A stretch of DNA of 48,974 nucleotides from Lachnospiraceae bacterium (GTDB taxonomy: Bacteria > Bacillota > Clostridia > Lachnospirales > Lachnospiraceae). Position numbers and translations under genes: made by a program. Shown here piece after piece: positions 13,634 to 29,922 of this stretch. The number at the start of each line of letters is the position of its first letter. Positions within the stretch are counted from its first letter, which is position 1. The notes beneath the pieces are model-generated. The model was not told where the DNA came from. It saw nothing but the letters and a program-made list of their open reading frames with translations, and ran no database searches. The stretch is taken from the NCBI GenBank assembly GCA_016288825.1, contig JAEELH010000091.1:1-48974 (forward strand), read 5' to 3'.

Positions 13634-15820
13634 ATGGATGTTATAGTTACAGGTGAATACAACTATTTGATGAGGGGGCTCATTGATAAGCTTAATAAGG
13701 AGGGACACCACGTCTTTGTTCTTTCCGGAGCTCATTACGACAGAGAAAAATTCCCTAAAGTATATGAACAATATGATTTTTCCTATGACAGTACCAGCAT
13801 GAGGCAGATCGTTGAAAGTATCAACCCTGATGCTGTTATTTTCATGGGCGCTTATGATACCAGCTTCAATTGGAGTTTTCATCAGGCAGAGGCGGTTAAG
13901 TACTCAACCGGACTTGTTAATATTTTGGTTGCTTTATCAGCACTAGAAAAGGATACAAGAGTACTTTATCTTTCCAGCGAGGAGATCTATTCCAGGAGTT
14001 ACGAGGGCAATATTACTGAGGAAATGCAGATCACACCTCAGGGATACAAGGCGATGGCTATATCTCAGGGAGAGTTGACCTGTGCCAACTATGTGAATTC
14101 CATGGGAATGGATATCAGGATTCTCCGTCTTGGTAACTTGTATGGTCTTCCGGTGGGCAATATTGATCTTGATCCATTGATCGGTCGTATGGCAAGAGAG
14201 GGACTAGAGCAGGGCGTTATCACTGCCAATGTAAATCATTCATTTGCGTTGCTTGATGTATCCGATGCTGTGGACTATATCTATCAGGTTCTTGACAAGG
14301 AGGATACGGATCATCCGATCTATAATCTTTCCTCCGAAGAGGAGATCAACGAGCTTGAACTGGCATCACTTATTGCTAAGGGTATAGGTAAAAATGCCAC
14401 AGTTGAGGAAAAAAACATAGGAGCGCCATATAAAATAGTCCTTTCGTCGGAGAGATTCAGAAGTGAGTTCCGAGGGAAGGTATTCCATCATGCTTCTGAG
14501 GAGATACCCAAGATAGCGGTAGCTCTTCGACGTAATCCCCAAAAGTATTTCTTTGATGGAGACGGGCCGGCGTCCTTTGCAAAGCGTTTTCAGAATGCAT
14601 TTGGCAACATCTTAAGAGCAGTTCTTCCCTTTGTGGAAAACATGATCATTTTTATTCCGTTCTTTATGATGCATAACAGGGCAGTAGATAGCGAGTATTT
14701 TTCGCATTTGGATCTGTATCTTTTGTATGTACTGTTTTTTGCCATTATCTACGGGCAGCAACAGGCTACGTTTTCTGCTATCCTGGCTACGGCGGGGTAC
14801 CTGTTCAGAGCCAATTATAATCGAAGCGGACTTGATATCATGCTGGATTACAGCACATATATATGGATCGCGCAGCTATTCATTTTGGGCCTGGTAGTGG
14901 GACATATGAAGGACAAACTCAAGATGGTCCAGGATGAAAGCAAGGAGGAGGTTGATTACCTAACAGGTCAAGTTTCGGACATTAGTGATATCAATGCCGT
15001 CAATGTTCAGATGAAGTCCATCCTGGAACAGCAGGTTATCAATCAGAATGACAGTTTCGGTAAGGTTTACAATATCACCTCATCCCTTGATCAGTATGAG
15101 CCTGAGGAAGTTCTTTTCTATGCGGCAGAGATCCTGAGGCAGCTTATCAGGAGCGAGGATGTAGCGATTTATACCGTGGCGAACCGTTCATTTGCCAGAC
15201 TTTTTGCATCTACATCTAAAAAGGCCAGGGGACTTGGCAACTCTATTGAGTACCCCAAGATGACCAAGATGTACGAGGAAATATCTGCGGACCGCGTATT
15301 TATCAACAGGGATATGGATCCGGACTATCCGCTGATGGCGGACGCCATTACTTCTGAGGAGGAGATGCAGCTTATCATCATGGTTTGGGGTATTCCATGG
15401 GACCGCATGAATCTGGGTCAGGCCAACATGCTGCGTATTGCCGGTTACCTCATCCAGAATGCGGTGCTTCGTGCCAACAGATACATGGATGCTCTTGAAA
15501 ATACCAGATACGAGAGTGGTACCGACGTGCTTTCGGTGGATGCGTTTTCTTCTCTTGTGCGGGCGTTTATTTCCGCAGAGCAGAGAGATCTTACAGAGTG
15601 TTGTATCCTAAGGGTTGACAGCGAAAAGCCTGTTGATGAGGACAAGATGGCGACAGCTGTCGGTAAGACTCTTCGTAACTCCGATTACCTGGGAAGACTA
15701 CCGGATGGCGGACTTTATATACTTCTTTCCAATACCAGTGATGAAAACGCCGGATACGTTATCAATCGTATCAAGGGCGAGGGATACAGAGCAGTTATTA
15801 CAAAGGATATTGATGTATGA
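13634..15820 (+). CDS. pelD: SDR/NAD-epimerase-like domain fused to PelD-like (4TM-GAF-degenerate GGDEF) c-di-GMP receptor
   Basis: 728 aa. N-terminal SDR-like region (MDVIVTGEYNYLMRGLIDKLNKEGHHVFVLSG...), then clustered TM helices (ENMIIFIPFFMM...YLLYVLFFAIIYG...ATFSAILATAGYLFR...IWIAQLFILGLVVGH), GAF-like region, C-terminal RNSD-YLGRL-PDGGL. pelE/F/G-like genes follow. Confidence 0.75.
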   Translation: MDVIVTGEYNYLMRGLIDKLNKEGHHVFVLSGAHYDREKFPKVYEQYDFSYDSTSMRQIVESINPDAVIFMGAYDTSFNWSFHQAEAVKYSTGLVNILVALSALEKDTRVLYLSSEEIYSRSYEGNITEEMQITPQGYKAMAISQGELTCANYVNSMGMDIRILRLGNLYGLPVGNIDLDPLIGRMAREGLEQGVITANVNHSFALLDVSDAVDYIYQVLDKEDTDHPIYNLSSEEEINELELASLIAKGIGKNATVEEKNIGAPYKIVLSSERFRSEFRGKVFHHASEEIPKIAVALRRNPQKYFFDGDGPASFAKRFQNAFGNILRAVLPFVENMIIFIPFFMMHNRAVDSEYFSHLDLYLLYVLFFAIIYGQQQATFSAILATAGYLFRANYNRSGLDIMLDYSTYIWIAQLFILGLVVGHMKDKLKMVQDESKEEVDYLTGQVSDISDINAVNVQMKSILEQQVINQNDSFGKVYNITSSLDQYEPEEVLFYAAEILRQLIRSEDVAIYTVANRSFARLFASTSKKARGLGNSIEYPKMTKMYEEISADRVFINRDMDPDYPLMADAITSEEEMQLIIMVWGIPWDRMNLGQANMLRIAGYLIQNAVLRANRYMDALENTRYESGTDVLSVDAFSSLVRAFISAEQRDLTECCILRVDSEKPVDEDKMATAVGKTLRNSDYLGRLPDGGLYILLSNTSDENAGYVINRIKGEGYRAVITKDIDV

Positions 15821-16794
15821 CACTTTCCCACAGATCGATCTTTGTCATCGTTCTTATTGCCAATACAATAATAGCTCTCATTTATCTTAATGTGACCCTG
15901 TTGTATTCCGCTGAGCAGAAGCTCAAGGAACTGCGGGCACCTGAGGATGAAAAGATCACTTACAGAGATCAGGATATCGATCATAAAAAGATCGGAATAT
16001 TTTTCTTGCTACAGTTATTTTGCCCTGTAGCGGGGCCTTGCTTCGTAGGCTTGGCTTTTATTTGCCGCAAGTTGTTTTTTACAAGGCCTGTGGATCTGAC
16101 AGCGGTAGTTTTCAGCAAGGAAAGGGTAGAAAGCCGTAATCCTGCGGATGTTGAGCGAGAGAGTAATATCGTTCCCATGGAGGAGGCGCTGGCGGTTACG
16201 GATAATTATAATCTTCGCAGCCTGATGCTTAATGTACTAAAGGGAGATATCAGCGGTTATCTGTCAGCTATTTCCAAGGCGCTTAACAGCTCGGATTCAG
16301 AGACGGCTCATTATGCAGCATCGGTACTTCGTGATGAGCTTAATGATTTCCGTGCCAAGTCCAATGCAATGTACAATGCGCTTGATATAGCGGATAAGGA
16401 GACTACCGGCAAGATCGGCGTAGAGCTTATTGAGTATATGAACGCCTTTCTTATCCAGGATGTTTTTACACCAATGGAACAGGAAAATTACGTTCAAATG
16501 ATGGCCACCGCTGCAGAGGCTGTATATGACAGGACTCCGGAAATGCTTTTGCCTTATCATTACGAATGGGTGGCGCTCAGGCTTTTGGAGACAGATGATT
16601 ACAAAAAGTGTGAGGAGTGGACAAGGCGTGGAATGGCTGCCTTTCCGGATGAACTTTCCAGTTATACGTCACTTCTCAAACTATATTTCAAAACCGAGAA
16701 CCGTGACAGGTTTTTCGGAACTTTACAGGAATTGCGTGAGTCTCCTATCGTACTTGATCAGGAGACCTTGGAAATTATCCGTACATTTAGTTGA
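15817..16794 (+). CDS. pelE: PelE-like membrane protein
   Basis: Two N-terminal hydrophobic segments followed by a soluble helical repeat (TPR-like) C-terminus. Position directly after the PelD-like gene, 4-nt overlap. Confidence 0.6.
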   Translation: MTLSHRSIFVIVLIANTIIALIYLNVTLLYSAEQKLKELRAPEDEKITYRDQDIDHKKIGIFFLLQLFCPVAGPCFVGLAFICRKLFFTRPVDLTAVVFSKERVESRNPADVERESNIVPMEEALAVTDNYNLRSLMLNVLKGDISGYLSAISKALNSSDSETAHYAASVLRDELNDFRAKSNAMYNALDIADKETTGKIGVELIEYMNAFLIQDVFTPMEQENYVQMMATAAEAVYDRTPEMLLPYHYEWVALRLLETDDYKKCEEWTRRGMAAFPDELSSYTSLLKLYFKTENRDRFFGTLQELRESPIVLDQETLEIIRTFS

Positions 16795-16842: not shown

Positions 16843-19800
16843 ATGGAACTGTCTATGGAGTGGCAGACGATACTGCTTATCGCCGGCACGCTGCTTAGCT
16901 ATACTCTAGTGACACTTGTCATCCCTTCTGTTGTTTTCGGGCCCAGGCTTATGAAGCTTCCTTTTGCTCTCAGGATGATGGGCTACTACTGCATAGGCAA
17001 TACCATAATCCTTTACGTGGTTTTTACACTGGAGTTTTTGCATATTTCCTATGCACCTACGCTTGTTCTGCTTACCCTGATAATCTATGCATATTTTTTC
17101 CTCCATATCAGGGGAAAAAGTTTTCATCAGTTTTTTCAGGAGTTGTATGCCACTGTCAATCAGTTATCTACAAAGACAATCACCATCAGGACCATCAGAT
17201 CCAGGAGAAAGCCTAAGAGAGATGCCTTCAAGGCCGGAGCCAAAAGGATCTTTTTTGAAGTATTTCTGTGTCATATCATAGAATGGCTGCTGCTGGCAGC
17301 TTTGATAGGGTATGGGCTGTGGCTGTTTGGGTCGGAGAATATTCAGGAATTCGGTTATCATGCCAATGATGGTACGGTTCATACCAAGTGGATCAACAAT
17401 CTGGTGCTTAATGATATTTTTTCAGAAGGCATTTATCCCTTCGGTTTTCATGTTGTGATCTATTATCTTCATGAACTTTTCGGGATCAGGGTTATGGATC
17501 TTATCAGGATCTTTGGCCTGGTTACACTGGTTTATCTGCTTTTAAATATGGTCGCTTTTATGAAGACTATATTCAGACACAGATTTTTGCCTGAGTTGGG
17601 ATGCTTTATTTTTATCGGTTTCAATGCATTTCATGAATATGCTACCTGGCGATACATTGCGGCCTTGCCCCAGGAAAACGCCATGGTATTCATGTTCCCG
17701 TCTCTTGCGTTTGCCATAGCATACTTTCACTATAAGTTTGAGAGAGGAAAGCTGGAGTCGCTGCCGCCGGTTGAGGTTCAGACTTTGATCCAGAGCGAAC
17801 CCACAGAGGAAGAAAAACCTGCAAAGACTAAGCTTACCCGGGCAGAAAAGAAGGCGTTGATAGCCGAGAAAAAAGCTCAAAAGGCTAAAGATGCGCTGTT
17901 GGCAAAGCAGGCCAGAGCAGATGAAAAGAAGGATACGCGTTTTGCCGGAGCTAAAAGCAAACGGGAGCGCCGTGAGTTTGAACGTCTCGCAAAAGAGATA
18001 GCAAAGGAAAAGAAGAGAGAACTAAAGAAAACCGAAAAGAAAAAGGTTGTAAAGAAAAAGCCTGAAAAGAAAAGGTTGGCCGTGGATCCCGGCTACGAGC
18101 CTGAGGCAGAAGTTCTTACCGTTGATAAGGTAATTGCGGGTACATCCGTACCCGAAAGCGTTCAGGATGAAACAGACAGACTTACAGTTGATCTTCCTAC
18201 TTTGTCCGATATCGTACCCGAAGCAGAGTCAGACCCGGCTCAGGAGAAACATGCCGCTGATGCTGCGGAGGCCTTATCCGAGTCTGCATCAGACACTGAG
18301 ACCGGAGTTATCACCATCGAAAACCTTGGTGCCGAGTCAACTCAGAATGAGGATACTCAGGAACCGCCCAAGAAGCGTCCGGTAGAGCCTGAGGTAGTCA
18401 AGGTCAGATGGTACCAAAAGATCTGTAGAGGTTACCTTCATCTCAACAGAAGGGTGGAGGTATCACTGGGCAGAGAAGACACCTTGTGCATGTTCCTTTT
18501 TGCACTTGCCTTTGCCATGACAATAGCGGTACATTTTTATGCTACCATCGTGGCTGTATTTTTGTATTTTGCTATTGCTTTCGGATACGGTGCCAGATTC
18601 TTCAGACCCAAGTATTTTATACCGATACTAAAATCTATCTTCTTGGGAATCATTATAGCGTTTTTGCCCTTCCTGGTAGCTTTTGCTTTGGGGAAGCAGC
18701 TTCAGGGATCGCTGATGTGGGCGGTTTCAGTTATGCAACCTGCACCGGCGCAAACTACGGTGGTGGAAGAAACCGAGGAGTATGAAGATACCGAGGAGGG
18801 AGAGTATACAGATAGCGGAGATGACTCCGGGATCGCAGAAGATAGCGATACAGATCCATCCGGGGATACAAAACAGAGCGACAGTTCCCAGGAAAAGAGT
18901 GAAAAGAAACCGCTCTTTGTATTTAAGAGGCCTGCCATTTTTGATCGTATAGCTATACGTTTTCAATACATTCTTACAGGCGCCAATAATATGCTGGGAT
19001 ACTACGTTGAGTGGTGGCAGCTGGAAAACAGTTTCCCCATGGCTCAGTTTTTCTATGGTATGGTGCTTATTCTGCTGGCAGCGGGGATCATATTGTTCCT
19101 GCCTCTCAGAGAATATGCCATGACCCTTATTTCCATGGCGCTGGGAGAGGTCTTTATCCTTCTTATGCTGATGGGATCCGGAGCAGGACTTCCGTCCATC
19201 ATGGAAAACTATCGAGTGCTGGTATTCTTTGTTCCGCTTATAGGCATAGGATGTGCGTTAGCAGTAGATGCGGTAATAACCATTGTTTTGGATTGGCTCC
19301 ATTGGAAATATGTAAAGTGGATCCCGCATTTTGCGGCACTAGCGGCTTGCGTTCTTTGTGTATTCTACATGTACAAGCAGGACTACATCAGGGATGCCTC
19401 GTTCTTTATGGAAAGGTACAATGCCCTGAGTCTCAACGGTGCCATAACATGCACCAGCCGCATCATGTCGGAGAATAAAAACTGGACATACACCATAGTT
19501 TCTACTGTTGATGAGGTGGAGATGACCAATCTCTACGGATATCATTACGAGGATATTGTCCTTTTACACAAGCTTGAGAAGGTCAATACTGAGGGATCTG
19601 CAACTCAGGACAATTTCAATATCTTTCAGGATGATCCTGAGGATGAAAACGATCCCAATACCTATATTCCTACAAGGTATGTTTATATCTACATTGAAAA
19701 GCAACCGGTAGGATCCAGCTCGGATTATTTTGATGACGACTGGAGGACTTCTTCGGACGGAGCGAAGTATAAAGTTCCGGCCGGCGGCTCTGTGTATAAT

Positions 19801-20010
19801 TACTTTGATGCTAATCGATGGATAGTCATGTGTCATATGTACATGTGGATGAGAAAACTGATCCAGATCTATCCGGAGGCAATTACTATTTATTACGAGG
19901 ATAACGATTTTATCTGTTACAGACTGACCCAGGGTACGATCCCGTACAATCTGGGAATAGATTATGGTTACAATGATGCAGATGAGGAGCTTGTTTTAGG
20001 TGATCAGTAA
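16843..20010 (+). CDS. Large polytopic membrane protein, putative GT-C-like/polymerase-like component of the pel-type locus
   Basis: 1055 aa with many TM segments; HANDGTVHTKWINN loop after TM; long Lys/Glu-rich tract and a separate acidic tract; C-terminal soluble domain. Embedded between pelE-like and DUF2194 genes. Confidence 0.6.
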   Translation: MELSMEWQTILLIAGTLLSYTLVTLVIPSVVFGPRLMKLPFALRMMGYYCIGNTIILYVVFTLEFLHISYAPTLVLLTLIIYAYFFLHIRGKSFHQFFQELYATVNQLSTKTITIRTIRSRRKPKRDAFKAGAKRIFFEVFLCHIIEWLLLAALIGYGLWLFGSENIQEFGYHANDGTVHTKWINNLVLNDIFSEGIYPFGFHVVIYYLHELFGIRVMDLIRIFGLVTLVYLLLNMVAFMKTIFRHRFLPELGCFIFIGFNAFHEYATWRYIAALPQENAMVFMFPSLAFAIAYFHYKFERGKLESLPPVEVQTLIQSEPTEEEKPAKTKLTRAEKKALIAEKKAQKAKDALLAKQARADEKKDTRFAGAKSKRERREFERLAKEIAKEKKRELKKTEKKKVVKKKPEKKRLAVDPGYEPEAEVLTVDKVIAGTSVPESVQDETDRLTVDLPTLSDIVPEAESDPAQEKHAADAAEALSESASDTETGVITIENLGAESTQNEDTQEPPKKRPVEPEVVKVRWYQKICRGYLHLNRRVEVSLGREDTLCMFLFALAFAMTIAVHFYATIVAVFLYFAIAFGYGARFFRPKYFIPILKSIFLGIIIAFLPFLVAFALGKQLQGSLMWAVSVMQPAPAQTTVVEETEEYEDTEEGEYTDSGDDSGIAEDSDTDPSGDTKQSDSSQEKSEKKPLFVFKRPAIFDRIAIRFQYILTGANNMLGYYVEWWQLENSFPMAQFFYGMVLILLAAGIILFLPLREYAMTLISMALGEVFILLMLMGSGAGLPSIMENYRVLVFFVPLIGIGCALAVDAVITIVLDWLHWKYVKWIPHFAALAACVLCVFYMYKQDYIRDASFFMERYNALSLNGAITCTSRIMSENKNWTYTIVSTVDEVEMTNLYGYHYEDIVLLHKLEKVNTEGSATQDNFNIFQDDPEDENDPNTYIPTRYVYIYIEKQPVGSSSDYFDDDWRTSSDGAKYKVPAGGSVYNYFDANRWIVMCHMYMWMRKLIQIYPEAITIYYEDNDFICYRLTQGTIPYNLGIDYGYNDADEELVLGDQ

Positions 20011-21787
20011 AAGAAATTTTTTTACAATTACAATGGTCATGCTGGTATGCGCCTTTTTGTTTCAGCTTACCGGAGGAGCAAAACTTGTTTTGTCCAAATT
20101 CGAGATCAATGAGTATTTTACGGGATCGGAGCCGGAAGAGGTTACAAGTAAGTTTGTTGTAAGAAACAATAACAGGACGAATTTTATCAGTTTTTACGGT
20201 AATGATCCCAAACTTGCAAATATGCTTGGGGAGTATTGTTATTACCAGAAAAAGAATCTGGTCAGATCCCATTCTGTGGCAGAGATCCTTACAGACAACG
20301 GACGACGCAATGCCGATATGGTCTGCATCCAGGGAAGTGCCATAACTGAAAAGGATCTGGATGGTATCGATTCTCTGATCAAGTTCGGACACAGGATAGC
20401 CTTTTTGGATCTTCCGGATGTGGAGGTAATAAAAAGCAGCCAAAGGCTTAGGGATATCCTTGGTATCGTACAGGTTTATGAGGATGAGACTCACCTTAAC
20501 GGGATCCATCTTAACAAAAGTTTTCTTATAGGCGGGGAGCAGTTTTATGAGGCTCTTACTCCCGAGGCGGAAAAACAGCAGGATCTTGAACTTGATGTTC
20601 CCTGGTATGTGGTAGGTTCAGGTTGCACAATGTATATGAACGGTATCCTTCCGGAGGAGATCAAGCAGCGTATCCAGCCCGGATTTTATCCAGCAATTAT
20701 TTGGAGCAGACACCTGGGTGAAGCAACCATATTTGCTGTTGAGGGAGACTACATGAGGGATCTTTCGGGTATCGGTATCCTTTCATCCCTTGAGGCCTGT
20801 GCCAATGATTTTACGGTTTATCCCGTGGTAAATGCTGAGTGTCTTGTATTTGAGAACTATCCCACATTTGCAAATGAAAATACAGAAAAACTGCAGGAAC
20901 TCTATTCCCGTAATGCTCAAAATGTGGAAAGGGATCTGATCTGGCCCGGACTTGCGGCCGTGGTCAACGATACGGATTTTGTTCCCAGTTATACTACATC
21001 CGCTTATATTACTGATAAGAATGCAGAGAGGATGGATAAGGATGCGGTTGATGCCTTTTTCCAGCTGATAAGAGAGCAGCACGGAGAGGTGGGATATGCG
21101 GTTGGAAGAAATCAGGATATCCAGGCCAACCTTGACTTTTTTACCACGTATCTGCCTACGTACAGATTTCAGTATGCCTGTGCCCAGAATGAAACAGAGG
21201 CCGCTACAGGTAGCCTTCTTGGGGAGGCTGGGGACAACAGGTTTGCCACAATCCTTATCAACAAGGACGCCAGCACTCATCTGGTAGATGCGGAGGATGA
21301 CGGGTTTATCGGCCTGTCCGCGGTCAACGACGCCAGTGTTCATACTTTTTCCGATGATATCAGGGAGAGGTCCATTCTTACAGCTCTTGGATATCTGATG
21401 ATCGCTGAGGATATGTCCAATGTGATCTATCCCCGGGATGAGGATGATGAGTGGCAGAACAAGTTTGAGAGCCTTGCAAGCAATATTGAGACTTACTATA
21501 AGCCCCTTAAGGGTTTTGACCATGTAACATTGTCCGAAGCGGGAAACAGAGCCAGGAGTTATCTTAACAGCCGTGTGTCCGGAACCAGACATGGTTTTAA
21601 ACTCATCCTTCTTACGAATGCATCTAAGCGCCAGCCAAGATTTTGCATTCTTCGGACTCCGGGTAAGGAGATCACCGACATAGAAGGAGCAACTTATGAT
21701 GAAATAGAAGAGGATATCTATCTTCTTACAGTTACAGAAGAGCATGTTAATATCACCTGGGAATACAGAAAAGCGAAAAAGGATTAG
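20000..21787 (+). CDS. PelA-like/DUF2194-type exported protein (possible polysaccharide deacetylase)
   Basis: N-terminal TM (FFTITMVMLVCAFLFQL), then about 560 aa extracellular. Position before pelF, as for the deacetylase in Gram-positive pel loci. VVNDTDF and VHTFSDDI could be CE-type motif remnants. GTG start. Confidence 0.5.
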   Translation: MISKRNFFTITMVMLVCAFLFQLTGGAKLVLSKFEINEYFTGSEPEEVTSKFVVRNNNRTNFISFYGNDPKLANMLGEYCYYQKKNLVRSHSVAEILTDNGRRNADMVCIQGSAITEKDLDGIDSLIKFGHRIAFLDLPDVEVIKSSQRLRDILGIVQVYEDETHLNGIHLNKSFLIGGEQFYEALTPEAEKQQDLELDVPWYVVGSGCTMYMNGILPEEIKQRIQPGFYPAIIWSRHLGEATIFAVEGDYMRDLSGIGILSSLEACANDFTVYPVVNAECLVFENYPTFANENTEKLQELYSRNAQNVERDLIWPGLAAVVNDTDFVPSYTTSAYITDKNAERMDKDAVDAFFQLIREQHGEVGYAVGRNQDIQANLDFFTTYLPTYRFQYACAQNETEAATGSLLGEAGDNRFATILINKDASTHLVDAEDDGFIGLSAVNDASVHTFSDDIRERSILTALGYLMIAEDMSNVIYPRDEDDEWQNKFESLASNIETYYKPLKGFDHVTLSEAGNRARSYLNSRVSGTRHGFKLILLTNASKRQPRFCILRTPGKEITDIEGATYDEIEEDIYLLTVTEEHVNITWEYRKAKKD

Positions 21788-21790
21788 GAT

Positions 21791-23257
21791 ATGAGGATCG
21801 CACTTGTGGCGGAGGGATGTTATCCCTACGTGGTGGGCGGCGTTTCCAGCTGGATACACAGTATTATCAGATCATTTCCGGAGCATGAGTTCATTGTTAT
21901 AGCAATTATTGCAGACAGAGCCATGAGAGGACAGTTCGTTTATGAATTGCCTGAGAATCTCAAGGAAGTTCACGAAGTGTATCTGGCTGATGTAGACTGG
22001 TCGGATCAGTCATCCACCCGAAAAAGCCATCTCGGAAGAAAAGAATATCACGCATTAGAGAGTGTTATCGCCAACCGTGAAGTAGACTGGGATACCCTTT
22101 TTAACATGTTCAGAAGTAAAAAGATATCCATCGATGACGTTCTTATGGGAGAGGATTTCCTTTACGCGGTAAAAAGCTGTTATAAAAAGCGATTTACTGA
22201 TGCTGTCTTTTCGGATTTCCTTTGGACCATGAGATCCATGTATCTGCCGTTGTTTTACGTTATGAAATTTAATCCTCCCAAGGCAGATCTTTATCACTGT
22301 GTTGCAACGGGATATGCCGGAGTTATTGGTTCCATGGCACGTAGGAGACATAGATGCGGACTGCTTATCTCGGAGCACGGTATCTATACCAGAGAGCGTG
22401 AGGAGGAACTTATCAAGGCCAAATGGGTCAAGGGCGTATATAAAAATATCTGGATAGACCAGTTTAAAAAGATGTCCACTCTGGCTTACGGAGAGGCTGA
22501 TCTTATTACCAGTCTTTACGGACACGCAAGAGAGCTTCAGATCGAGCTTGGGGCAGCGCCCAATAAGCTTGTTATCACTCCCAACGGCATCAATATGGAG
22601 CGTTTTGAAAACCTTCCGGGACGCCTTGCTGAGGATGAGGGATTTGTCAATATCGGTGCGGTTCTTCGTGTTACCCCCATCAAGGATGTTAAGACTATGA
22701 TAAGAGCTTTCGGATATGCCAAGGAAAGACGTCCGGCCCTTAAGCTTTGGATCATGGGTCCTACAGAGGAGGACGAGGACTACGCCAAGGAGTGTTTTGA
22801 TCTGGTAGAGACCATGCATATCCCGGATGTGGTCTTCACCGGCAGGATCAATGTGACTGATTATCTGGGGAGGATGGATTTTACCATCCTGACATCTATC
22901 AGTGAGGGTCAGCCCCTTACCATACTGGAGGGATTTGCGGCCCATCTTCCGTCTATAGCAACAGATGTGGGCAATTGCTACGGACTTATCTACGGAGAAG
23001 ACGGAGATGAGCTTGGTGACGCAGGAATAGTTACTCATATCATGAACGTTCAGGAGATAGCTGACGCCATGATACGACTGGGATCCTCATCCCAGCTTCG
23101 CAAGAAGATGGGTGAGATCGGATATGAGAGGGCAAAGTCAAAGTACAGGATCCAGGATATGGAAAAGACCTACAGAGGGATCTATGATGATTTTGCAATG
23201 TCCGCTTTCGGACAAACTTCGGAAAAGAGTGAAGAGGTTAATGATCAGGGGAACTAA
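21791..23257 (+). CDS. pelF: PelF-family GT4 glycosyltransferase
   Basis: MRIALVAEGCYPYVVGGVSSWIHSII N-terminus; SEGQPLTILEGFA (E-x7-E). Confidence 0.9.
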   Translation: MRIALVAEGCYPYVVGGVSSWIHSIIRSFPEHEFIVIAIIADRAMRGQFVYELPENLKEVHEVYLADVDWSDQSSTRKSHLGRKEYHALESVIANREVDWDTLFNMFRSKKISIDDVLMGEDFLYAVKSCYKKRFTDAVFSDFLWTMRSMYLPLFYVMKFNPPKADLYHCVATGYAGVIGSMARRRHRCGLLISEHGIYTREREEELIKAKWVKGVYKNIWIDQFKKMSTLAYGEADLITSLYGHARELQIELGAAPNKLVITPNGINMERFENLPGRLAEDEGFVNIGAVLRVTPIKDVKTMIRAFGYAKERRPALKLWIMGPTEEDEDYAKECFDLVETMHIPDVVFTGRINVTDYLGRMDFTILTSISEGQPLTILEGFAAHLPSIATDVGNCYGLIYGEDGDELGDAGIVTHIMNVQEIADAMIRLGSSSQLRKKMGEIGYERAKSKYRIQDMEKTYRGIYDDFAMSAFGQTSEKSEEVNDQGN

Positions 23258-23260
23258 GTA

Positions 23261-24916
23261 ATGGCAGGACTTGGAGTCAGACTTAACAGAATATATGAAA
23301 AGCATTCGCTGATCACGACTCTCGGAGGCATCAGTTATTCAATCGTTGTAACCATTGCACCTATGGTGCTGGTTATTGGCACGGTGTTTGCACTTCAGCA
23401 GCTTCTCGGGTTTAATAAGTTAGGATATGCAGAGAGGGAGCTTTTTTCCTGTACCATGCTGTATATGTTTATCTTTTCACTGCTGATCACATCGCCCCTT
23501 AATGCTGTTATTTCCAGATATATAGCGGATGTTATCTATGAGGAAAAGTATGATGAGATCATGCCTTGTTTTTACTTCGCCCTGGGAGTGACTATAGTAG
23601 CTGCCATGATACCCGCAGTACCCTTTTTTATCCATGAGTTTGTGGTGGGAAAGGTTGATATCCTCTACATTATGATATCATTTGTGGGGTACCTGGCACT
23701 TATATATGTGTTCTACGTAATGCAGTATCTGTCGGCCACCAAGGATTACGCCAAGATGTCGGCATTTTACTTCTTTGGAATGATGCTTTGTTTTATAACG
23801 GCGGTTGTTCTCAACAAGCTTTTTGGAGTGTCCTGTACAGTAGCTATGCTGGTAGGTTTGGATGTGGGCTTTTTGCTCATAGCCGGATTTGAGATGGCGC
23901 AGGTAAGACATTATTTCACTACCAACAGTCATAACTACACAGGGCTTTTACCCTACTTCGGAAAGTACTGGTGGCTTATAGTCAGCAACAGCTTTTATAT
24001 GCTGGGACTTTATATACATAACTTTGTTTTCTGGACAACGGATATGAGGATAGTTGTAAGGGACAGCTTTGTTTGTGCAGAGCCTTATGATATGGCAACC
24101 TTTTTGGCCCTGGCGACCAATATTTCCGCAACGGTCATCTTTATTACCAGTGTAGAGCGTAAGTTCCACGAAAAGTACAGGGGTTATTCCGAGGCAGTTA
24201 TCGGTGGTCGTCTTTCGGACATAGAGATCGCCAAAAAGAGAATGTTTGATCAGCTTTCCATGCAGCTTTTGGAACTTACAAGACTGCAGTTTATCATTTC
24301 GGTGGTGATCTTCCTTGTTATGGTCGTGGTACTTCCCCAGGTGGGACTTTCCGGACTGGTCATGCAGATATATCCTCTCCTTGGTGCAGGATATTATGTT
24401 ATGTTCCTTATGTACGGCGCCATGATCTTTTTGTACTACTTCAACGATCTTTTCGGTGCCATGCTTACAGGTATCGTGTTCTTTTCCGTAAGCTTTGCGG
24501 GAGCCTGGATATCAAAGGACTTTCATCCCATTTGGTACGGAGCCGGACTTCTTGCAGGAGCTCTTGCCGCCTGGACGGTGGCTTATTTCAGACTCAGATG
24601 GGTCGAGCGCAATATGGACAGGCACATCTTTTGTGTGGGACATATCATTGCTCACGGTAAGGGAACACGGCCTCCGGACCTTGTGTGGTCCAGAGAGATG
24701 GGACCTCCGCCTCTTGTGAAAAAAGATGACAAAAAAGAGGAAAAGGTAGATAAAAATAAAGAGGATGCCGTCAAGCATATTTGGGATAAAAACCTTGTTG
24801 TGATCGGTGTTAACGGCAATACCTCCAGAAAAGAGCTTTTGGAGGATAAGGAGGAAGCAGATGATACCCTTCAGACTGATACTGATAGTGGTGGGAATAG
24901 TGATAATAGTGGTTGA
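23261..24916 (+). CDS. pelG: PelG-family polytopic membrane transporter
   Basis: MAGLGVRLNRIYEKHSLITTLGGISYSIVVTIAPMVLVIG; about 12 TM; directly downstream of pelF. Confidence 0.88.
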   Translation: MAGLGVRLNRIYEKHSLITTLGGISYSIVVTIAPMVLVIGTVFALQQLLGFNKLGYAERELFSCTMLYMFIFSLLITSPLNAVISRYIADVIYEEKYDEIMPCFYFALGVTIVAAMIPAVPFFIHEFVVGKVDILYIMISFVGYLALIYVFYVMQYLSATKDYAKMSAFYFFGMMLCFITAVVLNKLFGVSCTVAMLVGLDVGFLLIAGFEMAQVRHYFTTNSHNYTGLLPYFGKYWWLIVSNSFYMLGLYIHNFVFWTTDMRIVVRDSFVCAEPYDMATFLALATNISATVIFITSVERKFHEKYRGYSEAVIGGRLSDIEIAKKRMFDQLSMQLLELTRLQFIISVVIFLVMVVVLPQVGLSGLVMQIYPLLGAGYYVMFLMYGAMIFLYYFNDLFGAMLTGIVFFSVSFAGAWISKDFHPIWYGAGLLAGALAAWTVAYFRLRWVERNMDRHIFCVGHIIAHGKGTRPPDLVWSREMGPPPLVKKDDKKEEKVDKNKEDAVKHIWDKNLVVIGVNGNTSRKELLEDKEEADDTLQTDTDSGGNSDNSG

Positions 24917-25271
24917 TTTTATTATGTATGCCATTAAAAAGATGGGTGAGTCCTATGGGCTTCTCTGGATGTTTATCGGGGCCTTTACCCTGGTGGTAGG
25001 TATCATAAAAAGAGACTGGAGTGCCTTTTCCATCATTGATAATAAACTGCTGATCCCGGCCATTATCATTATCCTTATCATTCTTCTTCTGTTGTTTTTG
25101 ATGTCAAGTACGATTTCGGTACTCACAAGACAGAACCAGGAACTGGCAATGCATGTTTCTCTTTTGAATCAGGAAAATGAGGTTCTTATCAAGAAACTTA
25201 TGGGAGAGCAGAATATAAGGGATATGTCAGTCCTTACGGATACTACCGGGGAGAATTCCAATGAAGCGTAG
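24861..25271 (+). CDS. DUF2304-like small membrane protein
   Basis: ATG at 24861 with GGAGGATAAGGAGG upstream, in frame with the ORF-track start at 24807. Pattern: TM, TM, TM, then ISVLTRQNQELAMHVSLLNQENEVL coil. Confidence 0.6.
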   Translation: MIPFRLILIVVGIVIIVVDFIMYAIKKMGESYGLLWMFIGAFTLVVGIIKRDWSAFSIIDNKLLIPAIIIILIILLLLFLMSSTISVLTRQNQELAMHVSLLNQENEVLIKKLMGEQNIRDMSVLTDTTGENSNEA

Positions 25272-26451
25272 CATCCTATTTGTGATCAATACCTTGGGCA
25301 TTGGAGGTGCAGAGCGGGCGCTTATAAGTCTGATATCGGCCTTGCCCGAGGATGAGTTTGATATTGATCTTCTGGTAATAACCGGACAGGGTGAACTAGT
25401 GAGGGAAATACCTGATCATGTTAGTCTGATCTCGGACTGCAAACCTGTGAGTGTTCTTTCAAAAGAAGGTCGCGGCCTGTTAAAAAGACGGTGTATCAGG
25501 GCATTTTTCAAAAATGGACAGGGTATCGGGCTTTTACCATATATGATGACCAATGGTTTTGACATGCTCCGTAAGGGCAGGTTTTTGCCGGACAAAATTC
25601 TTTGGAGGCTTTTGGCCGATTCCTGCGTCAGACCTGATAAAAGCTATGATCTGGCAGTAGCATATATCGAGGGCGGTGCCACCTATTATGTGGCTGATCA
25701 TGTGAAAGCAAACCGCAAGGTCGCATTCGTTCACATCCCATATTCTGCTGCAGGATATACCAGGGGACTGGATAGGAACTGCTACAGGGCTTTTGACAGG
25801 GTTTATGCGATTTCGGAACCCATGGCAGCTGATCTTGCAGAGTTTTATCCGGAGATAAGAAGCAAGATCGGTGTATTTGAAAATCTATTAGACACCGGCA
25901 GGATAAAAAAGATGTCTCTTGAGTCGGGCTTTACTGACGGATACAGCGGACACAGGATCGTTTCTCTTCTTAGACTCACAAGTCAAAAGGCGGTGGATGT
26001 TTCCGTTGAGACCATGGCTCTGCTTAAGTCTCGCGGGATCCAAGCCAGATGGTATGTTTTTGGAGACGGAGATGAAAGAGACCGATTAGAGGAACTTATC
26101 AGGGAGAGAGGATTAGAGTCCGATTTCATACTTTGCGGAACAGTGCCAAATCCCTATCCATTTATCAGAGAGGCTGATCTTTATGTTCATGCCTCCAGAT
26201 TTGAGGGCAGGAGCATAGCTGTAAGAGAGGCTATGTCCCTTGGAACAGCTGTTATAGTTTCCGATGTTCCGGGTAACAGAGAACATATAAAAGACGGCGT
26301 TAACGGACTATTATGCCGGATGGATCCTGAGGACATTGCAGATAAGATCATAAGTCTTATTTCAGACCGTGATCTTTGCAAAAAACTGGGCGATAATGCG
26401 GCGCTTGAGGATGAGGATCAAATAGATCCGGTAAAATTGTTGTTTGAATAA
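25261..26451 (+). CDS. GT4-family glycosyltransferase
   Basis: NTLGIGGAERALISLI; FEGRSIAVREAMSLGTAVIVSDVPGNREHI (E-x7-E). Confidence 0.9.
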   Translation: MKRSILFVINTLGIGGAERALISLISALPEDEFDIDLLVITGQGELVREIPDHVSLISDCKPVSVLSKEGRGLLKRRCIRAFFKNGQGIGLLPYMMTNGFDMLRKGRFLPDKILWRLLADSCVRPDKSYDLAVAYIEGGATYYVADHVKANRKVAFVHIPYSAAGYTRGLDRNCYRAFDRVYAISEPMAADLAEFYPEIRSKIGVFENLLDTGRIKKMSLESGFTDGYSGHRIVSLLRLTSQKAVDVSVETMALLKSRGIQARWYVFGDGDERDRLEELIRERGLESDFILCGTVPNPYPFIREADLYVHASRFEGRSIAVREAMSLGTAVIVSDVPGNREHIKDGVNGLLCRMDPEDIADKIISLISDRDLCKKLGDNAALEDEDQIDPVKLLFE

Positions 26452-26466
26452 TTCTTTGGAGAAACT

Positions 26467-27258
26467 ATGGAACATGAATTACTGATCATAATACCGGCAT
26501 ATAATGAGGAAAAGAACCTACCGGTAGTGCTTGGCAATATGAGAGATGCAGGAGTTTTTGATTATGCCGATGTTCTGGTGATGAATGACGCATCTTCCGA
26601 TGATACAAACTGGATAGCCAAGTCTTTTCCGGTCCATGTTGTGAGCCATGTTTTCAATCTCGGTTACGGATTGGCTATACAGCTGGGGTATAAATACGCT
26701 GTGCGGAGAGATTATTCATATGTTATCCAGATGGATGCTGACGGACAGCATGATATCAGCAACATTGAAAGGCTGTACAAAGAACTGAAAACTCCCGATG
26801 AAAACGGAAAATTTCCGGATATAGTCATAGGTTCCAGGTTCCTGAAGGATTCGCCCAAGTACGATACCGGATTTTTGAAGATGATCGCCATCAGGTATTT
26901 CAGAGGATTGATCAAATTATTTACCGGAAAAAAGATAATGGATCCTACTTCGGGACTTCAGGGATTGTCCTTCAGGGCATTTTTGTATTATTCCTTATAT
27001 ACCAATTTTGACGATAAGTATCCGGATGCCAATATGATACTTCAGATGCTTTTGCTGGGATTTGGGATCAGAGAGATTCCGGCGGTGATGCATTATCGTA
27101 CATCAGGAAAAAGTATGCACTCGGGACTTAGGCCTATCGTATATATGTTTAGAGTTGGAATGTCTCTTTTAGCAGTGCGTTTTAGATATAAGTGGCTTAA
27201 GAAAGACAGAGGAGCAATCGAAGATGAGCATTTTTGCAAAAAAAAATTGGAAGATTGA
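26467..27258 (+). CDS. GT2-family glycosyltransferase (DPM1/polyprenyl-phosphate type)
   Basis: IIIPAYNEEKNLPVVL, MNDASSDDT, QMDADGQHD, GSRFL. Confidence 0.92.
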   Translation: MEHELLIIIPAYNEEKNLPVVLGNMRDAGVFDYADVLVMNDASSDDTNWIAKSFPVHVVSHVFNLGYGLAIQLGYKYAVRRDYSYVIQMDADGQHDISNIERLYKELKTPDENGKFPDIVIGSRFLKDSPKYDTGFLKMIAIRYFRGLIKLFTGKKIMDPTSGLQGLSFRAFLYYSLYTNFDDKYPDANMILQMLLLGFGIREIPAVMHYRTSGKSMHSGLRPIVYMFRVGMSLLAVRFRYKWLKKDRGAIEDEHFCKKKLED

Positions 27259-28486
27259 AAAGAAGTCACATACCCTCTCAACCAAAATGCTTTGTAATCC
27301 GCAGATGGGCTTCTATCATATCTACAGGTTTATGCTTCACAGAGCATGTGATCTGAATGCGGCAACTTTCCCTGATGTAGTTGGAGAAAGCATCGTCCTT
27401 TTAGAGTTTGATCTTTCTTACTACAAGGACAGTGCCCTTGATATGATGGCTCTTAACACTTTGGATTCTATCATTTCTTTTTTCGAGCAGCAGGAAAAGG
27501 ATATCATTGTCAGGTTTTCCTATGATTATGAGGGCAGAGCCTATGAGAAGGAGCCTCAGACCAAGGAGATCCTGTTTGATCATATCCAGACCGTATGCCC
27601 GGTTTTATGTGAACATAAAGATTCGATCTTTATGATGCAGGGCTTTTTCATCGGGAACTGGGGAGAGATGCACGGATCCAGGTTTTTGACGGAGTCTCTT
27701 ATCATCAGACTCCATGAGATGCTCCGCGAACTTCTTCCAACCGATATGTGGGTTGCGGTAAGGCGTCCTTCATATATGAGGCTTTTATCCTATGAGACCA
27801 ATGACAAGCATCTTTGCCTTTTCAATGATGCTATACTATCCTCGGAAACGGATATGGGAACCTACGGGCAGAGCGGGTTTATGGAGGATCCCATGAGCCG
27901 CAAGGAAGAGCTTCAATACCAAAACAAGATCACTCACAGGATCTATAACGGTGGAGAGGTGGTATCCGTTCAAAGCAGGGCAGAGGCCTATCTTGAGGAG
28001 CCGGAAGAAGTCCTCAGTACTTTTTCCCAGATGCATATCAACTACCTTAACAGGGATTATGATACCAATGTCTATCGCAAATGGTCGGAGGAGATCTACC
28101 CGCTGAAGGATGAGTTTAAGGGCATGGATCTGTTCTCAGTGGTATCGGCAAAGATGGGATACAGATTTATCCTTAAAAATGCAGAAATGCTGGAGGGTGA
28201 TGAGTTTCTTTTGACTTTTGAAAATCATGGATTCGCCAACGCTTTATTTGATATAGACGGGGTTATAAGTATAGGCGGATTCGAAGTGCCCTTCCCGGTT
28301 AGGCATTGCAGTATTGCCTGCGGTAAGGCGACGCCTTTCAAGATCGAATTACCAAAGATGGATAAGGGCAAATATGACCTGTCACTTTCATTTTTTAAGG
28401 CAGGTACCCTCAGACCCGTTTATTTCGCAAGCGCAGGATATGAGGAGGAGGCCAAGCTTCCCCTCGGAAAGATAATAAAGAAATGA
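27224..28486 (+). CDS. DUF4832-family protein, copy 1 (no obvious signal peptide)
   Basis: NPQMGFYHIYRF, IIVRFSYDYEG, DHIQTVCPVL, QGFFIGNWGEMHGSRFL; resembles DUF4832/GH-like beta/alpha-barrel proteins. Overlaps the GT2 gene end. Confidence 0.7.
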   Translation: MSIFAKKNWKIEKKSHTLSTKMLCNPQMGFYHIYRFMLHRACDLNAATFPDVVGESIVLLEFDLSYYKDSALDMMALNTLDSIISFFEQQEKDIIVRFSYDYEGRAYEKEPQTKEILFDHIQTVCPVLCEHKDSIFMMQGFFIGNWGEMHGSRFLTESLIIRLHEMLRELLPTDMWVAVRRPSYMRLLSYETNDKHLCLFNDAILSSETDMGTYGQSGFMEDPMSRKEELQYQNKITHRIYNGGEVVSVQSRAEAYLEEPEEVLSTFSQMHINYLNRDYDTNVYRKWSEEIYPLKDEFKGMDLFSVVSAKMGYRFILKNAEMLEGDEFLLTFENHGFANALFDIDGVISIGGFEVPFPVRHCSIACGKATPFKIELPKMDKGKYDLSLSFFKAGTLRPVYFASAGYEEEAKLPLGKIIKK

Positions 28487-29922
28487 GTAAGATGAAGATA
28501 GTAAAAATCGTAATAAGTGTATTACTGATCTCAACACTAGCAATTACCGGGATACGTATTGCTCCGGTTATAAGCATTTTTATGGCCAAAAGGTCTGTCA
28601 CCCAGCAGCTTGGAAAAAAGCAGGATGGGGATATTGGAGGTGCCTTCAGGGGCATGTACCATATCTACAGTTTCAAGCCTAAGGATGAGGAAAACGAAAA
28701 GGCCAGAGAGGATGCTGTGGAGGAGTCCAATAAACATCCTGAGGAAAAGCTTGCCCTTGCTGAGTTCAATATCGTTAACTATCGTGACGGTGACATATCC
28801 GAAACCGGACTTTCAGAGATTGCTTCATACATGGACACTCTGATCAGTACGGGAAAAGGACTCATTGTCAGATTTGTTTACGATTGGAACGGCAATGCTT
28901 CCGGAAGAGAACCCGATGATATCAAGATCATGCTTCGTCATATTGAGCAGATCGCACCTATCGTTAATGAGAGAAAGCAGGATATCATTATCATTCAGGG
29001 GTCCTTAGCAGGCGCTTACGGGGAGATGCACGGTTCCAAGCATTCTAAGGATAAGAGTACGAAAAAGCTTATAAAGAAGCTTCATAAGTGCATAGATCCC
29101 GAAATCTATCTTGCTGTTCGAACTCCCAGAGTGTACAGGAGGCTTTCAGGTATAGCTCATACTTCGGATGTAAGTGAGATATCTTATAAGGAGGGCAAGC
29201 TTAGAGATCATATTTCTCTTTACAATGACGGGATGCTGGGAAGCAAGTCCGATACCGGAACATACGGTTCGAAGAGGCTTAAGTCTTCCAAGGATGGCAA
29301 TATCGCAGCTGTTCGTAAGGACGAGATCGCTTTTCAAAAGGCTCTTTGTGATCTTGTTCCCAACGGTGGTGAGGTGATCAACGACAATCCATACAATGAT
29401 ATACCTGCAGCTATCACGGACCTTAGCAAGATGCATGTTACTTACCTTAATTCAGAGTATGATGAAGCCGTTATCAAAAAATGGAAGAACACACCATATC
29501 CCGAGGCTGTAGATGCATATGAAAGCGCTTATGATTATATAACTGCTTTTATGGGTTACAGGTACTATATTTCAAAGGCCAAGCTTGCGGTTGTCAAGTA
29601 CCCCAAGAAGAACGATTCCCTTGGTATTACGATAACCAATGACGGATTTGCTCCTTATTACAGAGATGTGGAGATGATCCTTATCGTTAAGGGTGAGGAT
29701 AACTTCTATAAGGAGATCAGAAAAACAACTGATATGACAGCTATGTCCAACGGTGAGTCAAGAACATTTAAATTTAAACTTATGAAAGAAGAATATGATA
29801 AGGGCGAGTACGATATCAGACTCACCATCAAGGATGCCATGAGTGGCAGGCTTATTCCTTTGGCCAATGATACAGTTGATGAGCAGGGCTTTTACAGTGT
29901 TGGACATATGGTAGTGGAGTAG
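28483..29922 (+). CDS. DUF4832-family protein, copy 2 (N-terminal membrane anchor)
   Basis: N-terminal TM (IVKIVISVLLISTLAITGIRIAPVI); RGMYHIYSF, LIVRFVYDWNG, RHIEQIAPIV, QGSLAGAYGEMHGSKHS, parallel to the preceding gene. Confidence 0.7.
   Translation: MSKMKIVKIVISVLLISTLAITGIRIAPVISIFMAKRSVTQQLGKKQDGDIGGAFRGMYHIYSFKPKDEENEKAREDAVEESNKHPEEKLALAEFNIVNYRDGDISETGLSEIASYMDTLISTGKGLIVRFVYDWNGNASGREPDDIKIMLRHIEQIAPIVNERKQDIIIIQGSLAGAYGEMHGSKHSKDKSTKKLIKKLHKCIDPEIYLAVRTPRVYRRLSGIAHTSDVSEISYKEGKLRDHISLYNDGMLGSKSDTGTYGSKRLKSSKDGNIAAVRKDEIAFQKALCDLVPNGGEVINDNPYNDIPAAITDLSKMHVTYLNSEYDEAVIKKWKNTPYPEAVDAYESAYDYITAFMGYRYYISKAKLAVVKYPKKNDSLGITITNDGFAPYYRDVEMILIVKGEDNFYKEIRKTTDMTAMSNGESRTFKFKLMKEEYDKGEYDIRLTIKDAMSGRLIPLANDTVDEQGFYSVGHMVVE

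Follow-up and report, generated by a model that had tools for sequence, protein, structure and literature searches.

The open reading frame at 13634-15820 (+ strand) of the window, i.e., the whole 48,974-nucleotide stretch of Lachnospiraceae DNA analysed here, encodes a PelD of 728 aa that opens a pel locus and whose N-terminal SDR domain has, as judged from sequence, lost its catalytic and cofactor residues. It belongs to a known type of PelD with a degenerate SDR domain and a GGDEF domain. Phylogenetic trees support the view that the dead domain descends from an intact UDP-hexose 4-epimerase-like domain that was fused to PelD once, and show that, if catalysis was never regained, it was lost at least three times while the SDR domain itself was kept. 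Whether the dead domain now works mainly as a docking module is, in our judgement, an evenly balanced question.

The SDR-PelD architecture is not new, having already been published for related bacteria. Whitfield et al. (2020; PMC7112168) described an N-terminal SDR domain on PelD, probably a functional one in Brevibacillus; in streptococci, clostridia and actinobacteria it has altered residues and is likely to be inactive. The initial annotation held that PelD is normally a separate protein, a statement outdated by these published fusions, both intact and degenerate. A 2025 study of S. intermedius states that what the degenerate SDR domain does in PelD is unknown (PMC12345266). What sequence comparison adds here is the likely presence of intact SDR-PelDs in five Bacilli family codes, the single fusion, the three or more losses, dN/dS estimates and the replacement of the catalytic Tyr by Lys or Arg.

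The N-terminal domain (~ aa 1-305; 13634..14548, +) has the epimerase fold of an extended SDR and aligns with intact relatives. Pfam Epimerase PF01370 matches aa 3-232 at 8e-18, an AlphaFold2 model built from 61 sequences (mean pLDDT 80) gives an SDR fold at ~ 90 for this part, and a Foldseek search of the PDB brings up extended SDRs including GalE, with target-normalised TM scores of ~ 0.75-0.82. There follow a transmembrane region (~ aa 326-430; 14609..14923, +), seen as AlphaFold2 helices and the most conserved part of the protein, and a GAF-like domain (~ aa 476-625; 15059..15508, +), recognised from predicted secondary structure and PelD homology; in L190, a relative with an intact SDR, this part matches PF13492 GAF_3 weakly. 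The C-terminus (15509..15817, +) is a degenerate GGDEF domain which, aligned to the DGCs 6khu and 3ign, has lost the GGDEF signature and retained RxxD; conservation and this alignment place the c-di-GMP I-site at R681-N-S-D684 with R712. Profile A4, which recovers PelDs both with and without an SDR domain, identifies the C-terminal half as PelD. The first reading from sequence, an extended SDR of some 300 aa joined to a PelD-like TM-GAF-GGDEF half, is thereby upheld.

The sequence and locus features of a PelD are present, i.e., transmembrane region, GAF domain, degenerate GGDEF domain, I-site RxxD with a distal Arg, and a locus including pelE, pelF and pelG. The domains and the RxxD and distal Arg are common to the PelDs of P. 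aeruginosa and B. cereus, which, in contrast, carry no SDR domain. With GalE-type UDP-glucose 4-epimerases the protein shares the extended SDR fold, but it lacks the YxxxK dyad and the TGxxGxxG cofactor motif of an active enzyme and is fused to a membrane receptor. The closest published counterpart is the extended-length PelD (PMC7112168), which has the same altered N-terminal SDR, transmembrane, GAF and (outside streptococci) degenerate GGDEF domains in a pelDE-A-F-G locus; the present protein differs in being a Lachnospiraceae member, and from the streptococcal forms in having a GGDEF domain.

To fix the register of the SDR motifs, we used the columns of intact SDR-PelD relatives (in our own shorthand, class II for an intact SDR with GGDEF and class III for a degenerate SDR with GGDEF). 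The catalytic Tyr and Lys are present in 25/25 class II proteins at columns 139 and 143, where the window's PelD has Lys139 and Ile143, so that the former YxxxK reads K139-A-M-A-I143 (14048..14062, +). The initial annotation was right that the catalytic Lys is missing, but its register was off by one: Y138 stands on a Pro column, and the Tyr column is K139. The former TGxxGxxG (aa 6-13; 13649..13672, +) reads TGEYNYLM in place of the TGGYGFIG of intact relatives, with the second and third Gly lost. Intact forms keep both TGGYGFIG (AGGYGFIG in L211) and YGxxK.

These losses are shared widely. The Tyr/Lys pair is found in 0/61 aligned Lachnospiraceae-type proteins and the third Gly in 0/61 named relatives. 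At the catalytic Tyr column stands Lys or Arg in 50/61 named relatives (K + R make up 11% of the region), and in 45/52 Lachnospiraceae rows, with L, T, Q, G and W among the substitutes in the remaining members; the Ser of the catalytic triad (S115) is retained in the window's PelD and in 53/61. In E. coli GalE numbering, D31, which closes the second strand, is the NAD-ribose Asp, and N179 and R231 contact UDP. The NAD-ribose Asp column (D31) has become T or S in 61/61, and the UDP-binding Arg (R231) is lost in the window's PelD and mostly F among the 61, while the N179 equivalent is retained in the window's PelD at position 168. Overall, G10, G13, D31, N179 and R231 are mostly replaced in Lachnospiraceae. 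All 25 class II proteins have the equivalents of Y, K, N179, R231 and D232, and in the 24 whose sequence covers the Gly motif and D31, the motif glycines and this Asp are present too.

The genome search that had been suggested for further SDR-PelD fusions turned up both intact and degenerate examples. In a collection scan with profile A2 the best 80 loci were from Lachnospiraceae or other gut or rumen clostridial MAGs, and Bacilli relatives were sampled separately, via the class of a Bacilli genome. Intact SDR-PelDs (L190, L199-L219, L223-L225) occur in five family codes (f33, f95, f104, f158, f177), whose placement in the Bacilli follows from the published intact type and from relatedness. 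As in the Brevibacillus protein, their domain order is that of the window's PelD, and both halves share ancestry with it. Among these intact forms, L211 (f177) keeps YxxxK and lacks the HxAA motif. Elsewhere, L194 keeps the catalytic Tyr with Cys in place of Lys, and the intermediates L220-L222 keep TGGYGFI/LG and have lost YxxxK, with F/Q, S/E and M/A at the Tyr/Lys positions.

In a tree of the PelD C-terminal half, built without SDR columns, the SDR-bearing PelDs form one clade (100/99). The 'lost' state requires at least three changes on this tree, counted as losses on the assumption that YxxxK is never regained, and a further tree built from a smaller set of rows gives the same picture. 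Grouping every 'lost' row into a single clade is rejected by the AU test (p 5e-7), and so is uniting the Lachnospiraceae rows with L220-L222 in one clade (p 7e-5). In the SDR tree, which took in only the closer dead domains, a branch with 100/100 support splits 23 fused SDRs, dead and intact, from 15 free epimerases. A wider first version with distant epimerases was unresolved owing to long branches and contained two rows that were PelD fragments, and it was rebuilt without them. SDR-less PelDs of ~ 390-450 aa (L196, L197, L226, L227 and others) occur in the same phylum, and one genome (G749) has one SDR-bearing and one SDR-less PelD.

Over the SDR part, dN/dS is 0.05-0.14 in close Lachnospiraceae pairs with measurable dS, several of them with dS > 1; between the window's PelD and its closest relative it is saturated. 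These values show, at the level of codon comparison, that purifying selection acts on the dead domain in close relatives. Invariant positions include K22, E45, D75, N96, E147, R165, P173 and D211, and nearly all Lachnospiraceae matches are full-length frames. Taken together, the one fusion event, the recurrent loss of catalysis and the low dN/dS values point to a non-catalytic function for the SDR domain, and closely related pairs of intact and dead forms (such as L223 versus L220-L222) open such a role to domain swaps.

Purifying selection after repeated catalytic loss makes a binding role the most likely one, and among binding roles our first choice would be docking within the PelDEFG complex, followed by metabolite sensing. 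The dead domain may thus be mainly a cytosolic protein-interaction module, a docking site for PelE or PelF or a means of dimerisation. Docking fits better than a sugar-nucleotide sensor because the domain has lost the canonical residues for cofactor and UDP contact. Dimerisation is not favoured over other docking, since conservation in the expected SDR dimer-interface helices (84-102 and 138-157) is not clearly above that in the rest of the domain.

Sensing is an unlikely but serious alternative, in which a sugar nucleotide or other anion would bind in the remodelled pocket and gate PelD together with c-di-GMP, so that PelD would integrate c-di-GMP with precursor supply. The prevalence of Lys or Arg at the Tyr column, retention of the Ser column and the invariance of D75 (A3) are consistent with this, but the members without Lys or Arg and the replacement of most GalE-type contacts speak against it. 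The lost contacts weaken the case for a GalE-like ligand pocket, while a different ligand could still be accommodated; a version in which the NAD site is gone and Lys or Arg in place of Tyr helps to bind another anionic metabolite seems improbable to us. Similarly improbable is that the domain is a passenger left from the enzyme fusion and retained only through folding in cis with PelD. Repeated loss of catalysis speaks for a passenger, and the SDR part and linker do vary more than the transmembrane and GAF parts; in addition, S. thermophilus JIM8232 has lost the domain from its PelD and still forms pel-dependent biofilm (PMC7112168), so the SDR domain is not always essential. However, low dN/dS, the invariant residues and the full-length frames argue against mere carriage. 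That the domain is still an epimerase acting through substitute residues is very improbable: the fold and S115 are retained, but dyad, Gly motif, D31 and UDP-binding Arg are replaced together in this protein and its close relatives, and the genome has an intact GalE.

This GalE (L002; motifs TGGAGFIGS and YGWTK) looks functional, as had been anticipated of an epimerase elsewhere in the genome, and is the candidate for a separate enzyme that would make UDP-GalNAc. Intact free-standing epimerases (TGGAGFIGS, YGLSK) also lie immediately upstream of pelD at L233:4789-5754 and L248:3435-4466, where the PelD SDR departs from the motifs (L211) or lacks the dyad (L194), respectively. A linked epimerase gene as a rule for degenerate loci was rejected, since these two are the only cases in 40 loci.

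R681 and D684 are invariant among aligned relatives and R712 is nearly so. In B. cereus, both c-di-GMP binding and biofilm formation depend on the equivalent PelD residues, R363, D366 and R395, and that protein has been shown to bind c-di-GMP and activate Pel synthesis (PMC7112168). By analogy with the B. cereus and P. aeruginosa proteins, c-di-GMP would bind at R681xxD684/R712, and the bound PelD would switch on the PelD-E-F-G complex. Such signalling is plausible here because the genome gives 35 GGDEF match rows, some being pieces of one gene.

The genes from pelE to pelG all lie on the + strand. PelE (15817..16794), assigned from position and similarity among loci, has homologues immediately downstream of pelD in 40/40 loci inspected. 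Between pelE and pelA lies a gene for a polytopic GT-C-like membrane protein of 1055 aa (16843..20010), a conserved accessory gene of Lachnospiraceae pel loci that has no match in Pfam or NCBIfam. BLAST finds homologues in ~ 55 named loci, many directly 3' of pelE; they are present in 12/16 Lachnospiraceae loci inspected and absent from the Bacilli-type loci inspected. A 770-aa homologue (model pLDDT 82) has as best PDB matches the GT-C glycosyltransferases DPY19, STT3, PglB, ALG12 and ArnT, at low TM scores. Next come a PelA-like DUF2194 protein (20000..21787; PF09960, 1.9e-12, and synteny), the glycosyltransferase PelF (21791..23257; NF038011, 1e-111, above cut-off) and PelG (23261..24916; PF16933, 2.5e-134).

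The GT-C-like, DUF2304, GT4, GT2 and DUF4832 genes are additions relative to the published extended-length loci. The GT-C-like, DUF2304, GT4 and GT2 genes could form a polyprenyl-phosphate-sugar cassette decorating Pel outside the cell. Downstream of pelG, at 24807-27258, lie the genes for the DUF2304 protein (PF10066, 3e-8), GT4 and GT2, and these recur in most Lachnospiraceae loci having the GT-C-like gene. Two DUF4874/DUF4832 proteins are encoded side by side at 27224-29922; in the pel locus of S. intermedius, the DUF4832 protein SIR_1591 has glycoside hydrolase activity (PMC12345266).
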